Shown here piece by piece: positions 4,208 to 51,534 of a stretch of 64,000 bases of DNA. The stretch lies in contig NZ_OY781460.1 of assembly GCF_963676855.1 (NCBI RefSeq), forward strand, positions 1,287,501 through 1,351,500, in the 5' to 3' direction. Both the position numbers and the translations under genes were made by a program. The first letter of the stretch is position 1. Each line of letters begins with the position of its first letter. Below the pieces are notes generated by a model. That model ran no database searches. It saw only the letters and a program-made list of their open reading frames with translations, and was not told the origin of the DNA. The stretch is from an uncultured Anaeromusa sp. Its GTDB lineage: Bacteria; Bacillota; Negativicutes; Anaeromusales; Anaeromusaceae.

Positions 4208-4291
4208 CGTTTTAAACCTTTCTATAGGTAAATGGTTATGGAAGATGGGGGATGATTTACACTATTCTAATTTGTGCCCCCAAGAAAGACG

Positions 4292-4490
4292 ATGATTTAA
4301 TGAGTGTTTCGCTCAAATGAAACGGTGCCGGATGCGCCTAAGGTCGGTTGGGCTAGGATTGCATGACAACCGACTTTCTTAATTCGGCAGGCGAGGAAGA
4401 AAACACAGGCATAGCGGCGCTCTGCCGAGGATTTCTGACGATGTATGACGGAAAAAAGAGCATTTTAGCGTGAGCTACGAATAAATTAGC
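4292..4490 (-). repeat. Dispersed structured repeat, copy A
   Basis: Read in the direction of the flanking genes (minus), this copy has the core GTCAGAAATCCTCGGCAG (4423-4440) followed by a small hairpin (GGCAGAGC-GCC-GCTATGCC) and TTTTCTTCCTCGCC. Outer arms near 4292-4320 and 4455-4490 are partly complementary. The arm at the right overlaps the stop codon of the binding-protein gene. Same family as the copies at 33.6, 47.5 and 51.4 kb. It fills most of the 278-bp gap between the two genes. Confidence 0.7.
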
Positions 4491-6078
4491 GGTTTTCTAA
4501 GTAAGCATTTTTAAAATCCGCTAGGCCCAGTACCGACCAGGCGACGCCTTGCAGGCGGGGGCTGGCTACATAGGGCTGTGTCGTGTAGTAAATAGGCAGG
4601 ATGACAGCGTCGTCAAGGAGGATCTGCTCCGCTTCATGCATGGCCGTCATGCGGCGCGCCGGGTCAAGGGAGCTTTGCGCTTCTTCGATTAAGGCGTTAT
4701 AGCGGGGGCTTTGGTACTTGGCGTCGTTTGTGGCGTCCTTGAAAACATCTAAAAAGGTCATGGGATCGGCGTAGTCGCCAATCCAAGAAGCGCGGGCGAT
4801 TTGGAACTCGCCGCGCGTGCGGGACGCCAGAAAGACTTTTGATTCCTGATTGGTCAAGGTGACGGCGATACCCAAGCTTTGCTTCCACATCTCTTGAGCG
4901 GCTTCGGCAATCGCCTTATGCATTTCACCGGTATTGAAAAGCAATGTGATCGGTGGCAGCGTGTCTCCGTAGCCTGCTTTTTGCAGCGCTTCTTTTGCGG
5001 CGGCTGCGTCTTCGCGGCTTAGGTCGCCGCCTTCTTGACGAAAATCAAGGCCTGTAGCCGGATTGGTGAGGCCCGGAGGTACCCAGGCGTAGGCTGGAAG
5101 CTTGCCTCCTTTGACTACGTGGGTAATCAGAGCTTGCCGTTGAAAGGACAGCGCGAAGGCGCGGCGCACTTCCAGGCGGTCAAAAGGCGGCGCTTGGGTG
5201 TTAAACACGTAATAATAGAGGCCCAGGTAGGGAGCGATGCGCAGGAGTCCTTCTTTTTGCAGGCGGTCATGCTCTACCACCGGCGGCTCGACCATCATAT
5301 CCGCTTGGCCGGTTTCCACCAGTGTCAGCCGGGTGGCTTGGGCGTCCACGATAGGCCAGTACATGCTATCCAGGCGGATGGAGGCGGCATCCCGGTAGTA
5401 GGAGTTTTTGACGAAGGATAAGCTGCCGTGGTGCACCCAGCCAGTCAGGCGAAAAGGGCCGTTGCCGATAAGCGTTTCCGCTTGGGACGACCAGCTTTCC
5501 GGCGCCTTTTCAATACTGGCGCGGTGAACGGGATAAAAAGCGTGGAACGAAGCCAAGCTGAGAAAATAAGCCGTAGGCTTTTCCAACGTGACTTCCAGCG
5601 TGCGCTCATCCAAAGCGCGGACGCCGACTTCTTCAGGGGACGCCTCTTTTTCATTGAAGGCTTGTCCGTTTTTCAGCGCGTATAGCATATAGGAATTTTC
5701 CGAAGCTGTTTCCGGGTCTAAAGCGCGTCGCCAAGAATAGACGAAATCGTGAGCGGTGAGCGCTTCGCCGTTGGACCAACGTGCGTCTGGACGCAGATGA
5801 AAGGTGTAACGCAGGCCGTCGGCGGAAATTTCCCACTGCGTCGCTACGCCAGGCAGGGGCCGGTCTTTGGCATCCAGACGGGTCAATCCCTCAAAAAGCT
5901 GCAGCTCGGCCAAGGATTCCGGGATAGCTGTGGATTTGGCCGGATCTAAGGTGGCAGGCTCGGCTTCCAATACATAACGCAGAGTATTTTCCGTTTGCTG
6001 TGGCTGACGACTGCAGCCGGATGCGGTTAGGACGATTAGCAGCAGAAGAATAGCAAAGTGGCGCAAGGAAATACGCAT
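4486..6078 (-). CDS. Oligopeptide/dipeptide ABC transporter substrate-binding lipoprotein
   Basis: A 530-residue SBP_bac_5 (OppA/DppA) protein. The N-terminus is a lipoprotein signal: a hydrophobic stretch ending in TASGC with the modified Cys near residue 22. The mature part starts LRYVLEAEPATLDPAKS, typical of family 5 binding proteins, and includes the RPDARWSNGEALTAHDFVYS block. It captures peptides outside the membrane for the DppB/DppC permeases. Its ATG overlaps the preceding stop (TAATG) and has GGAGG upstream. It is the last transporter gene of the operon. Given the neighbours, the ligand may be murein peptides, an inference only. Confidence 0.94.
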   Translation of the reverse strand: MRISLRHFAILLLLIVLTASGCSRQPQQTENTLRYVLEAEPATLDPAKSTAIPESLAELQLFEGLTRLDAKDRPLPGVATQWEISADGLRYTFHLRPDARWSNGEALTAHDFVYSWRRALDPETASENSYMLYALKNGQAFNEKEASPEEVGVRALDERTLEVTLEKPTAYFLSLASFHAFYPVHRASIEKAPESWSSQAETLIGNGPFRLTGWVHHGSLSFVKNSYYRDAASIRLDSMYWPIVDAQATRLTLVETGQADMMVEPPVVEHDRLQKEGLLRIAPYLGLYYYVFNTQAPPFDRLEVRRAFALSFQRQALITHVVKGGKLPAYAWVPPGLTNPATGLDFRQEGGDLSREDAAAAKEALQKAGYGDTLPPITLLFNTGEMHKAIAEAAQEMWKQSLGIAVTLTNQESKVFLASRTRGEFQIARASWIGDYADPMTFLDVFKDATNDAKYQSPRYNALIEEAQSSLDPARRMTAMHEAEQILLDDAVILPIYYTTQPYVASPRLQGVAWSVLGLADFKNAYLENR

Positions 6079-33420: not shown

Positions 33421-33712
33421 GAAATAGAAACGAACAGGAGTCTCGCTGAGAACCGGAAGGCTCGCATGAGGATTGCGGGATGCGAAGTTTTAACGAAAAA
33501 GAGCAGGACATGCGAGAAGCGGAAACGGAAATTCGGATAGGGAGCCAATGATTTAATGAATGCTCCGGCAGGGCGAGATGGTTTTTTGCCAGGCGAGGAA
33601 GAAAATGCAGGAATAGCAGCGTTCTGCCGAGGCTTTCTGACAAAGTCGGGTGGAAAAAAATCCGTTCTGCCGGAGTGATGAATAAATCATTGGCTCCTAA
33701 AAAAGGAATAAA
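33421..33712. other. Non-coding stretch with two repeat families
   Basis: After vorC: a diverged copy of the AACAAGAGTCGCGGGAGA family at 33433-33475, then structured repeat copy B (33541-33697), then the terminator. No gene is seen. Confidence 0.6.
33541..33697 (-). repeat. Dispersed structured repeat, copy B
   Basis: The best-bounded copy, 157 bp. The left arm 33541-33571 (GGAGCCAATGATTTA... CTCCGGCAG) pairs with the right arm 33667-33697 (CTGCCGGAG ... TAAATCATTGGCTCC) at about 24 of 31 positions. In minus orientation the core reads TTTGTCAGAAAGCCTCGGCAG (33623-33643) and then TTTTCTTCCTCGCCTGGC. The core matches copies A, C and D; the arms do not. Confidence 0.75.
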
Positions 33713-33742
33713 AAAAAGCTCCTGCATAAGCAGGAGCTTTTT
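33713..33742. terminator. Bidirectional intrinsic terminator
   Basis: AAAAAGCTCCTG and CAGGAGCTTTTT around CATAAG, with A8 on the left and T5 on the right. It ends the zinc-ribbon gene (minus) and can stop read-through from the vor operon (plus). Confidence 0.9.
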
Positions 33743-33750
33743 GATTGCTC

Positions 33751-42165: not shown

Positions 42166-42615
42166 ATGGACAAAAGCTTAGCACACACAAAATGGATGTG
42201 CAAGTATCACGTAGTATTTACGCCCAAGTATAGGAGAAAAATCATCTATAACCAACTAAAAGTAGATATCAGAGATAACTTAAAGGCGTTGTGCAAATAT
42301 AAGGGTGTAGAAATCTTGGAGGGGCACATGATGCCCGACCATATCCATCTTCTGCTATCAATACCACCAAAGTATAGTGTGTCGTATATAATGGGTTATC
42401 TAAAAGGAAAGAGTGCATTAATGATATTCGATCAACATGCGAATCTGAAATACAAATTTGGGAATCGACATTTCTGGTCAATTGGATATTATGTGAGTAC
42501 AGTTGGCCTTAATGAAGCCACAATAAAAAAGTATATAAGAGAACAAGAGAAAGTAGATCAAATGATGGATAAAATTAGTGTGAAAGAGTTGGAGGACCCC
42601 TTCAGGGGTAACTAG
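42166..42615 (+). CDS. tnpA: IS200/IS605 family transposase TnpA
   Basis: 149-residue Y1 HUH transposase, full length: KWMCKYHVVFTPKYRRKIIY start, the HUH metal motif in MMPDHIHLLLSI, and the catalytic Tyr in the ATIKKYIREQE helix. It cuts and joins single-stranded DNA at the hairpin ends. All motifs are intact, so the element may be active. Confidence 0.95.
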   Translation: MDKSLAHTKWMCKYHVVFTPKYRRKIIYNQLKVDIRDNLKALCKYKGVEILEGHMMPDHIHLLLSIPPKYSVSYIMGYLKGKSALMIFDQHANLKYKFGNRHFWSIGYYVSTVGLNEATIKKYIREQEKVDQMMDKISVKELEDPFRGN

Positions 42616-47190: not shown

Positions 47191-47457
47191 ATGAACGACG
47201 AGTTAAGACGATTACTGGCGTTGTGCCATCGCTATGTTGAGGGCGAAATGGAGATGGAAGCTTTTGCGGAAGACTTTGATTTGTATTTGACAGAGCATGA
47301 AGGCGAGCTTCTTCTACACGAAAGCGCCTATGATTTGCTGGATGAGATTCGTGATTCTTTGCTGTATATCCAACCGGACGATGCTGGCTTTGCAGCAGAA
47401 GAAAATGACTTGAAAGAGCGGATTCGAGCGGGCATGGAACAGCTGGATCGCTTCTAA
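47191..47457 (+). CDS. Small acidic protein of unknown function
   Basis: 88 residues from ATG 47191 (GAGGAGGG upstream; a longer frame from 47152 has no site). Mostly helical, strongly acidic, starting MNDELRRLLALCHRYVEGE and containing FAEDFDLYLTEHEGEL. The spacing of hydrophobic and acidic residues loosely recalls colicin-immunity-type small proteins, but no match can be claimed. It is followed by repeat copy C. Confidence 0.7.
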   Translation: MNDELRRLLALCHRYVEGEMEMEAFAEDFDLYLTEHEGELLLHESAYDLLDEIRDSLLYIQPDDAGFAAEENDLKERIRAGMEQLDRF

Positions 47458-47640
47458 CATTCATTAGAAGAGCTGCTAAGTTATTCGCATCTCACGTCAA
47501 ATCGATTCTTTTTGTGTCAGACTTTGTCAGAAAGCCTCGGCAGAGCGCCGCTATGCCTGCGTTTTCTTTCGCGTCTGACGCAAAAATTTCTCGCTTTGCC
47601 GGAGCGCTCATTAACTCAGCAGCTCCTTTGGTATTTAAGA
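47458..47640. other. Non-coding stretch occupied by repeat copy C
   Basis: Between the small acidic protein gene and the terminator upstream of the DUF2157-like gene; almost completely filled by the structured repeat. The following 47681-47867 is a leader without a recognised gene. Confidence 0.6.
47469..47626 (+). repeat. Dispersed structured repeat, copy C
   Basis: Arms AGAGCTGCTAAGTTATT (from 47469) and the complement of GGAGCTGCTGAGTTAAT (ending 47626) enclose the core GTCAGAAAGCCTCGGCAG (47526-47543), hairpin GGCAGAGC-GCC-GCTATGCC and CTTTCGCGTCTGAC (47567-47579). GTCAGA at the start of the core pairs exactly with TCTGAC at its end. Confidence 0.75.
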
Positions 47641-50923: not shown

Positions 50924-51366
50924 TGATGCTAACTATGCAAGGACAGTGGCCTCATGTTGTGAACTTTCTACTATATCTTTTGGTGGCGCTGCCTCTTTTA
51001 GGGATCGGCGTATGGCTTTTTGCCAGGCTGACTCCTTATAAAGAAGGCGAACTGTTGCATAACGGAGCGCAGGACGGGATGGCCGGACGTGCGGCGGAAG
51101 CGGCGGCGCATGATTTAGGAGGCAAGCTTCTGGGGCTGACGTTGGTTTTGGCTTCCGCTATTTTTCATTCCGTGCATATTTGGGATTTGCTCTTTTGGGG
51201 CGCTGTGGGTATTGTCAGCCAGGTGCTTGTGGCCAATCTTTTTGAAAGAATCACTCCGTACCAGGTAGCGCAGGAGATTCCCAAAGGGAATGTGGCTGTG
51301 GGAATTTTTTCAGCCCGCCTCAGCGTGGCGGCGGGGCTGCTGTTGGCAGCGTTGATCAGCTATTGA
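50920..51366 (+). CDS. DUF350 membrane protein
   Basis: 148 residues from ATG 50920, which overlaps the GspS stop and follows AAGGAGGG. Four helices in two repeats with the DUF350 pattern LLYLLVALPLLGIGVWLF and ELLHNGAQDGMAGRAAEAAAHDLGGKLLGL. The function is unknown, but it typically pairs with GspS-like ATP-grasp genes. Last gene of the operon; followed within a few bases by repeat copy D. Confidence 0.9.
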   Translation: MMMLTMQGQWPHVVNFLLYLLVALPLLGIGVWLFARLTPYKEGELLHNGAQDGMAGRAAEAAAHDLGGKLLGLTLVLASAIFHSVHIWDLLFWGAVGIVSQVLVANLFERITPYQVAQEIPKGNVAVGIFSARLSVAAGLLLAALISY

Positions 51367-51534
51367 GCGAGGTACTGATGCTTGGCTCACATACTTCGTC
51401 AGAATGGTCTTTTTTGCGGCAGCCCTTTGTCAGAAAGCCTCGGCAGAGCACCGCTCTGCTTGCGTTTTCTTTCGCGTTTGACGGAAAAAATCTTCATCCT
51501 GGCGAAGCGCTCGCTCAAGTATCATCTCCTCGAA
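51367..51534 (+). repeat. Dispersed structured repeat, copy D
   Basis: Starts right after the DUF350 stop. The left arm (GCGAGGTACTGATGCTTGG) and the right arm (complement of CGAGGAGATGATACTTGAG, ending 51532) are imperfectly paired; the core GTCAGAAAGCCTCGGCAG is at 51429-51446, the hairpin is GCAGAGC-ACC-GCTCTGC, and CTTTCGCGTTTGAC follows. The inner hairpin here is perfect where copies A and C have a mismatch. Confidence 0.75.

Follow-up and report, generated by a model that had tools for sequence, protein, structure and literature searches.

The window, meaning the whole stretch of 64,000 nucleotides analyzed here, covers positions 1,287,501 to 1,351,500 of a genome of 3,533,605 bases (G000; G and L numbers are our own handles for genomes and loci). 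It carries four copies of a dispersed repeat, A to D (Table 1), and a Y1 transposase gene of the IS200-like type, of which G000 has three copies with equal scores. All four repeat copies were recovered where the original prediction had placed them; the bounds of A and B were kept, and those of C and D were revised. In the orientation of the core, the left end of copy A is 33697; a terminator-like hairpin, recognized by eye at about 33710-33742, lies about 12 nt away. The left end of copy B lies 11 nt past the TAA stop codon (47455-47457) of the gene upstream and that of copy C 4 nt past a TGA stop codon (51364-51366) of its upstream gene. Genes were called with a simple codon-usage script instead of a standard gene finder; it misses small genes, apparently including one beside copy A.

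Table 1. Repeat copies, their parts and the Y1 transposase gene in the window (positions count from the first letter of the window; WC, Watson-Crick pairs).
Feature	Position	Strand	Basis or remark
Copy A, full-length element, 157 bp	33541-33697	-	fold, covariance model R1, arm pairing
Copy A, end arms	33683-33697 and 33541-33555		15/15 WC
Copy B, full-length element, 158 bp	47469-47626	+	end arms 13/15 WC
Copy C, full-length element, 159 bp	51371-51529	+	end arms 10/15 WC
Copy D, element with extra module	4285-4496 (approximate)	-	outer arms 4482-4496 and 4285-4299, 11/15 WC
Copy D, H3/H4 core	4379-4456	-	covariance model R1
Copy D, module of about 60 nt (GTCGGTTGTCATGCAATCC...)	4315-4375 (approximate)	-	bounds by eye
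IS200-like Y1 transposase gene	42190-42546	+

RNA folds of copies A, B and C were better than those of dinucleotide shuffles (z = -6.7, -6.2 and -3.3, with 0, 0 and 1 of 200 shuffles folding as well). Copy D had no such advantage (z = -0.25, 78 of 200 shuffles as good), because the insert of about 60 nt sits inside the element, and we did not see the mismatch-free inner hairpin that had been described for this copy. The module is missing from the orthologous element of G002. It was found at the same internal point in six elements of G000 (the one in the window and L019, L020, L021, L023 and L028). As a separate dispersed family it was rejected, since six of the eight matches to its 16-mer (up to two mismatches; the reversed pattern gave one match) lay inside elements. 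When the 15-nt end arms of the four copies were cross-paired, each left arm fitted its own right arm best in every row, in line with the original prediction. That the arms differ completely between copies did not hold; all of them have diverged from a single terminal consensus, GGAGCC.CTGATTTA / TAAATCAGCGGCTCC.

A family of nested hairpin elements

A common core had been proposed for the four copies, and its pattern, with up to two mismatches allowed, gave 40 matches in the 3.53-Mb genome and none for the reversed-pattern control. From 22 full copies we made an alignment (A1), an explicit structure and a covariance model (R1; 158 positions, 56 pairs). With 150 candidates scored, R1 gave at least 82 matches in G000 at E <= 0.01, many of them one locus seen on both strands. 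Our catalogue comprises 56 loci, a lower bound; R1 supplied 55 and the pattern search alone one more, a partial 69-nt match at 1,621,276 being left out; the predicted number of four is true of the window, and the genome total is far larger. The consensus of 128 copies from three species starts as GGAGCCGCTGATTTA-TTCACAT-CTCACGCCAAAACGG...TTTTT-CCGTCAGAC...GTCAGAAAGCCTCGGCAGAGCGCCGCTATGCCTGCGTTTTCTTTC... and runs on to the right end as ...GTCTGACG-AAAAA...TTTGGCGGAG-CGCTCAT-TAAATCAGCGGCTCC. The element, about 158 bp long, consists of four nested helices, with H1 at the ends and H4 at the apex. Less than 200 bp in length, bounded by terminal inverted repeats and dispersed in many copies, it has the general features of a MITE. 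Reduced forms occur as well: a 102-bp copy of G000 has an internal deletion and has kept its outer arms, its orthologue in G001 being full-length, and at three loci of G001 (906673, 1236143 and 1334969) the outer arms alone are left. In three module-bearing copies of G002 (L261, L259 and L265) the right arm of H4 is a near-perfect complement of the left arm; the orthologues of two of them (122583 and 45296) have an ordinary H4 arm.

Counting G000, 13 of 40 genomes had R1 matches, with 74 candidates scored in each and both strands counted. There were at least about 60 in each of the four genomes of the window's genus, at least 68 in G012, at least 74 in G029, which belongs to another family, and 0 to 5 elsewhere; a deeper search of G029 (150 candidates scored) gave at least 135. 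Several G003 matches have the same coordinates as matches in the MAG Negativicutes bacterium INTA.CYC.032, with which G003 is very probably identical. A sample of 250 Negativicutes genomes from 91 genera was searched with a core-only model (R2; 80 positions, 24 pairs, built from 22 cores of several genomes), which had matches at E <= 1e-4 in 71 of the genomes and 28 of the genera. With 18 candidates scored per genome for R2, these and the other copy numbers are minimum values in which a locus may appear on both strands. The ends around the core are of at least two kinds, those in G007, G020, G021, G055 and G065 being GGG.GTGTCT-like. Copy B, the sole copy searched against plasmids and phages, had no match there. 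A 71-bit element match lies at 2283-2427 of a Lachnospiraceae-labelled contig of a Butyrivibrio MAG (L034, JAILJR010000031.1), reflecting either transfer or mis-binning.

Arms pair with their own partners and covary

The preference of each arm for its own partner extends over the family. In G000, H1 arms of the same copy formed Watson-Crick pairs at a fraction of 0.813, against 0.608 after swapping between copies (sd 0.014, 300 shuffles). The corresponding values were 0.809 against 0.610 in G001, 0.774 against 0.552 in G002 and 0.922 against 0.856 in the relative G029 (30 copies). Short, interrupted or module-bearing copies were omitted, which left 41 of 56, 46 of 52 and 41 of 49 copies in G000, G001 and G002, respectively. 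The arms of H2 and H3 likewise paired better with their own partners than with swapped ones.

For the core, we compared 79 matches from 69 chosen loci across the class (57 distinct rows). Here, 20 of the 24 pairs showed changes on both sides, and the covariation score was 0.455 as opposed to 0.155 in shuffled and at most 0.119 in slid controls. Majority identity was 0.79-0.89 in the internal loops (TGCGTC, TCCTT, TTGA and CCTGC), 0.72 in H3, 0.64 in H4a, 0.80 in H4b and 0.96 in T5/A5, six opposite-strand rows of alignment A3 being excluded from these identities and from the mismatch counts of the core.

The mismatches that remain do not favor G.U over A.C. In H1-H3 of 79 orthologous-site representatives we counted 172 G.T and 216 A.C cells, 52 of the G.T cells sitting in one fixed column. 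Both kinds were reduced to about half of the expectation from swapped arms (G.T 0.053 against 0.101, A.C 0.067 against 0.112). The ratio of G.T to A.C was independent of the strand of the gene at the left (222/247 with a + gene, 56/71 with a - gene). The core alignment (51 distinct sense rows) held 25 G.T and 50 A.C, though a model-fitted alignment should favor G.U. The family-wide covariation is strong but looks like a DNA-level signal, since G.T is not favored over A.C and transcription context has no effect. The surplus of A.C corresponds to G.T on the complementary strand and is only a hint that this strand may be the folded one, since many cells are common by descent.

A search of the window against Rfam gave no match at gathering score. 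The window and six other loci together returned two sub-threshold hits only at E <= 0.1, to STnc350 and to the T-box. The STnc350 hit (33678-33746) overlaps the edge of copy A and reached 33.7 bits where the gathering score is 60. The T-box leader-like match (L345, 43-240) lies outside the element and scored 88.7 bits, with a gathering score of 93.

Ends, target duplications and the proposed link to IS5

Flanks were read for 45 copies of active relatives, namely 30 of the 135 G029 matches, 14 copies of G247 and G181 and one of G148. YTAR stood directly at the left end in 32 and directly at the right end in 34 of these. The flanking 4-mers were identical in 25 of the 45; four of them were non-palindromic (TTAG, TAAA, CTTG and TTCA), compared with one non-palindromic inverted case. 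In G029, 12 of the 30 copies read had CTAG on both flanks. The 14 copies of G247 and G181 are 160 bp long with at most two base differences, and nine of them lie between TTAA and TTAA. The accessible text on IS5 gives a target duplication of 4 bp, YTAR (PMC10359306). In the window's genus, an exact YTAR was found at the left end in 6 and at the right end in 10 of 76 cases, and within 7 nt of the left end in 27 (background 0.07 per window scanned). Target duplications are largely eroded here. None of eight loci compared showed a precise empty site; they held three outer-arm remnants, one left-end remnant and otherwise replaced DNA.

G148 carries a truncated, stop-interrupted IS5_4 gene (NF033581, 161.7 bits, cut-off 140) that is preceded by GGAATCGCTGATAAATTC. 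For this gene, IS5 homology stops at 1818 of L388, 40 nt before a MITE of the family (1859-2017, starting with GGAAGCACTGATAAATTC and flanked by TTCA on both sides). Behind a second IS5_4 fragment (162.2 bits) stand GGAAACGCTGATAA and TTAA. The likeness of these IS5_4 elements to the MITEs is limited to the ends, about 15-22 nt (GGAA.C.CTGAT...), and because it is confined to the ends, the G148 sequences look like IS ends rather than MITE remnants. Both genes are incomplete or degraded, and the IS5 link rests on these two genes of one genome. We found no intact IS5 transposase with matching ends. G000-G002, G012 and G029 together have 22 DDE_Tnp_1 genes and G003 has none; both ends were present at none of the 22, the sole end match being a single one with five mismatches about 600 nt from the gene (L310). 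By eye only, L290 and L292 resemble IS1182 and L291 resembles IS4. Ends and duplications are the sole ground on which we infer membership in the IS5 group.

Changes after insertion

By matching flanks we obtained 97 orthologous pairs from G000, G001 and G002, some of them on the basis of one flank. The best 85 of the 97 yielded 67 pairs with both elements at full length, of which 42 had an identity of at least 0.85, 22 lay at 0.60-0.85 and three fell outside. At the paired positions of H1-H3, the 42 similar pairs showed 225 one-sided and 13 double changes (11 expected if independent), seven of them compensatory; pooled shifted controls had 31 double changes with one compensatory. The new one-sided mismatches comprised 68 G.T and 67 A.C. 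Change rates were 0.083 and 0.092 in H1, 0.066-0.087 in H2, 0.048-0.116 in H3 and 0.065-0.066 in the loops beside H1, and were lower in T5/A5 (0.014 and 0.019) and the core (0.041-0.056). Arms are thus no better protected than loops, and the core is somewhat protected. Compensation at a given site is detectable but slight, and the matched arms must mostly have been present already at insertion. The few compensatory and many one-sided changes suggest that the hairpin was selected mainly during the mobile phase of the copies.

Identity within the 42 pairs was 0.934 for the element, 0.921 for the left and 0.827 for the right 80 nt, with 0.718 for unrelated flanks under the same aligner. The element exceeded the right flank in identity in 37 of the 42 pairs and the left flank in 16, an excess that is no clean proof of constraint, as the pairs were chosen for an element identity of at least 0.85. 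The less similar group (22 pairs, 0.60-0.85) had 209 double changes, 141 of them compensatory compared with 6-13 in shifted controls, which is the expectation if the members of a pair are distinct whole elements, each with matched arms. Unlike elements at one place were seen in 17 of the 67 pairs (10 loci; identity 0.58-0.66, the mean of random same-genome copies being 0.655). Judged by eye, 12 of the 17 sit at the same gene edge or terminator, and five have a piece of an older element between them. At a few intergenic regions the element has opposite orientation in two species.

Position relative to genes and replication

At orthologous sites of G000-G002, a gene edge lay no more than 30 nt from the left end in 71 of 94 cases and from the right end in 4 of 88. 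A stop codon was abutted by the left end at 53 of the 94 sites and by the right end at one. Where the left neighbor reads leftward (21 rows listed), its start codon was 16-27 nt away in 19, in most with a Shine-Dalgarno-like stretch between, as seen by eye. Active relatives are symmetric at gene edges (G029 10 of 29 at either end; G247/G181 5 of 14 at the left and 3 of 13 at the right). Since YTAR contains TAA and TAG, stop codons would be natural tolerated targets. The left-only polarity cannot be given by the palindromic YTAR target. Generic flank erosion was rejected as a cause of stop-codon abutment, since it leaves this polarity unaccounted for; selective retention, oriented insertion and left-sided deletion are candidate causes.

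With respect to replication, dnaA lies at 641,771, where the GC skew of sampled stretches switches sign. The origin-proximal half holds 50 of the 56 G000 copies (p 1e-9), and 42 of the 56 are co-directional with the fork (p 0.0002), for which gene direction may be the source.

Interpretation

We consider it quite probable that the repeat is an IS5-type, non-autonomous MITE family of about 158 bp with a structured core, present in many Negativicutes. The MITE named in the original prediction is supported by YTAR-type duplications in active relatives, ends common to IS5-family elements and many copies. The outer inverted repeats (H1) would be IS5-type ends in several subfamilies, inserting at YTAR with 4-bp duplications, as seen in the active relatives and presumed for the window's genus. 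They would enclose a nested hairpin that is conserved, T5-H3-loop-H4-loop-apex-A5. The folded state of this part, probably a DNA hairpin or a cruciform, may have been under selection during mobilization, because the stems covary while the internal loops (TGCGTC/TCCTT and TTGA/CCTGC) keep their letters. The copies of the window's genus appear to be old; they would have been inserted with matched arms, have stayed in place at orthologous sites of several species and have later accumulated one-sided changes and internal deletions. The compensatory change that had been predicted is real for the family as a whole and slight at a given site once a copy is in place; likewise, the structure is maintained in the mobile lineage and only weakly at a site after insertion. 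Frequent placement right after stop codons is partly expected if YTAR-type stops (such as CTAA and TTAG) are tolerated. Copies in this position would give the mRNA 3' end a long hairpin, with a putative effect on termination or stability.

The copies look like passengers mobilized by the enzyme of another transposon, not like an RNA gene. In the lineages with YTAR duplications, the mobilizer was most likely of the IS5 type, and we infer from covariation with conserved loops that the spread depended on DNA structure. One mobilizer cannot serve all copies, since the core sits within quite different ends in the five genomes with GGG.GTGTCT-like termini. A point against the IS5-type MITE is that DDE transposition gives no obvious reason for the pairing of H2-H4. 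A wider account, possible though doubtful in our view, would have a class-wide mobile DNA that spreads via a folded single strand. Its core hairpin, in which the stems covary freely and the internal loops keep their letters, would be read as a DNA structure by a putative protein during mobilization and would have become coupled to different IS ends in different lineages; in the window's genus, copies would be placed with one end against gene edges, where lineages hold quite different copies.

That a mutational process such as template switching or quasipalindrome correction, and not selection, keeps the arms complementary appears unlikely to us. It would agree with the equal removal of G.T and A.C mismatches and with the near-perfect H4 palindromes of the three module-bearing G002 copies, two of which have an orthologue with ordinary arms. 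It would also agree with the many compensatory double changes in the 22 less similar pairs, most of which look like different elements at one place. Correction should, however, remove the internal loops, whose letters are in fact better conserved than those of most stems, and the 42 similar pairs show seven compensatory changes against 225 one-sided ones.

A structured RNA, either a 3'-UTR element or a small RNA, that is kept at each site by selection on the transcript is quite unlikely. Strong core covariation, folds that beat shuffles in three of the four window copies, the many left ends abutting stop codons, the element identity above that of the right flank (in pairs chosen for identity) and the slower change of T5/A5 and core than of H1 after insertion would all suit such an RNA. 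Against it, no Rfam family was matched at threshold, G.U did not exceed A.C on the core strand in standing or in new mismatches, transcription context left their ratio unaffected and most arms changed no more slowly than the adjoining loops. Neither the non-coding RNA offered by the original prediction nor identity to a known Rfam family is borne out by these data.

We regard as very improbable a REP/RAYT-like element that is mobilized, in the form of single-stranded hairpins, by a Y1 tyrosine transposase and bears a CGTC-like tag in its core. CGTC- and GTAG-tagged palindromes are a known class in the accessible text of PMC3733652. Y1 genes were present in 9 of 10 genomes searched, and the copies prefer one replication orientation. 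But at 17 of 20 loci fetched no strong element match lay beside the Y1 gene, element ends were found at none of nine RAYT-like loci, and a RAYT-like gene of G029 had a weak relative (34 bits) about 1 kb away. Moreover, active relatives show 4-bp target duplications, which Y1 insertion is not expected to leave. The same accessible text reports no dedicated transposase for CGTC repeats (PMC3733652). Intrastrand triplex repeats (PMC4666352) were rejected, as other subfamilies of our element do not preserve the A/T-rich inner stem and the available passages of that source do not include these bacteria.

If the IS5-type MITE is correct, the family would be a structure-constrained miniature transposon present in 28 of the 91 genera sampled from a single class, with no Rfam match, and a clear case of covariation marking DNA rather than RNA. 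It would then call for caution in RNA discovery by covariation alone, as the score of the element is that of a textbook structured RNA. The polarity of left ends and the different elements at orthologous places would raise a testable question on targeting or retention.

Comparison with known systems

The element works like other bacterial MITEs. In the literature searched, mostly without subscription papers, we found no account of the repeat, and matches to end and core strings were unrelated by title; the family is apparently undescribed. Like IS5-type MITEs, it has YTAR-like duplications of 4 bp, and its ends, about 20 nt in length, are common to the two degraded IS5_4 elements. It differs in a structured core of about 80 nt that spans at least two unrelated end types, and in that no intact matching IS was found. 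Correia, ERIC and QMITE2 are likewise short MITEs of intergenic regions, with stable stem-loops in their transcripts; QMITE2 resides mainly in 3' UTRs. These we compared by description only; covariation and left-end polarity are not mentioned in the accessible part of that source (PMC10969869).

REPs measure 20-40 bp according to the accessible text of PMC3733652, and those within 15 nt of a stop codon are reported to stall ribosomes in that of PMC5082802. Our element resembles REPs and BIMEs as a palindrome close behind stop codons. REPs are often linked to RAYTs, whereas the element has about 158 bp and target duplications in active relatives. The bcr1 repeat of the Bacillus cereus group, about 155 bp long, combines traits of a mobile element with a predicted conserved structure; it belongs to another bacterial group, and the likeness is one of description. 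The attC sites of integrons are imperfect palindromes behind stop codons in which structure is kept, sequence varies and unpaired bases are conserved. By description our element is similar to these, occurring as dispersed single copies rather than in arrays.
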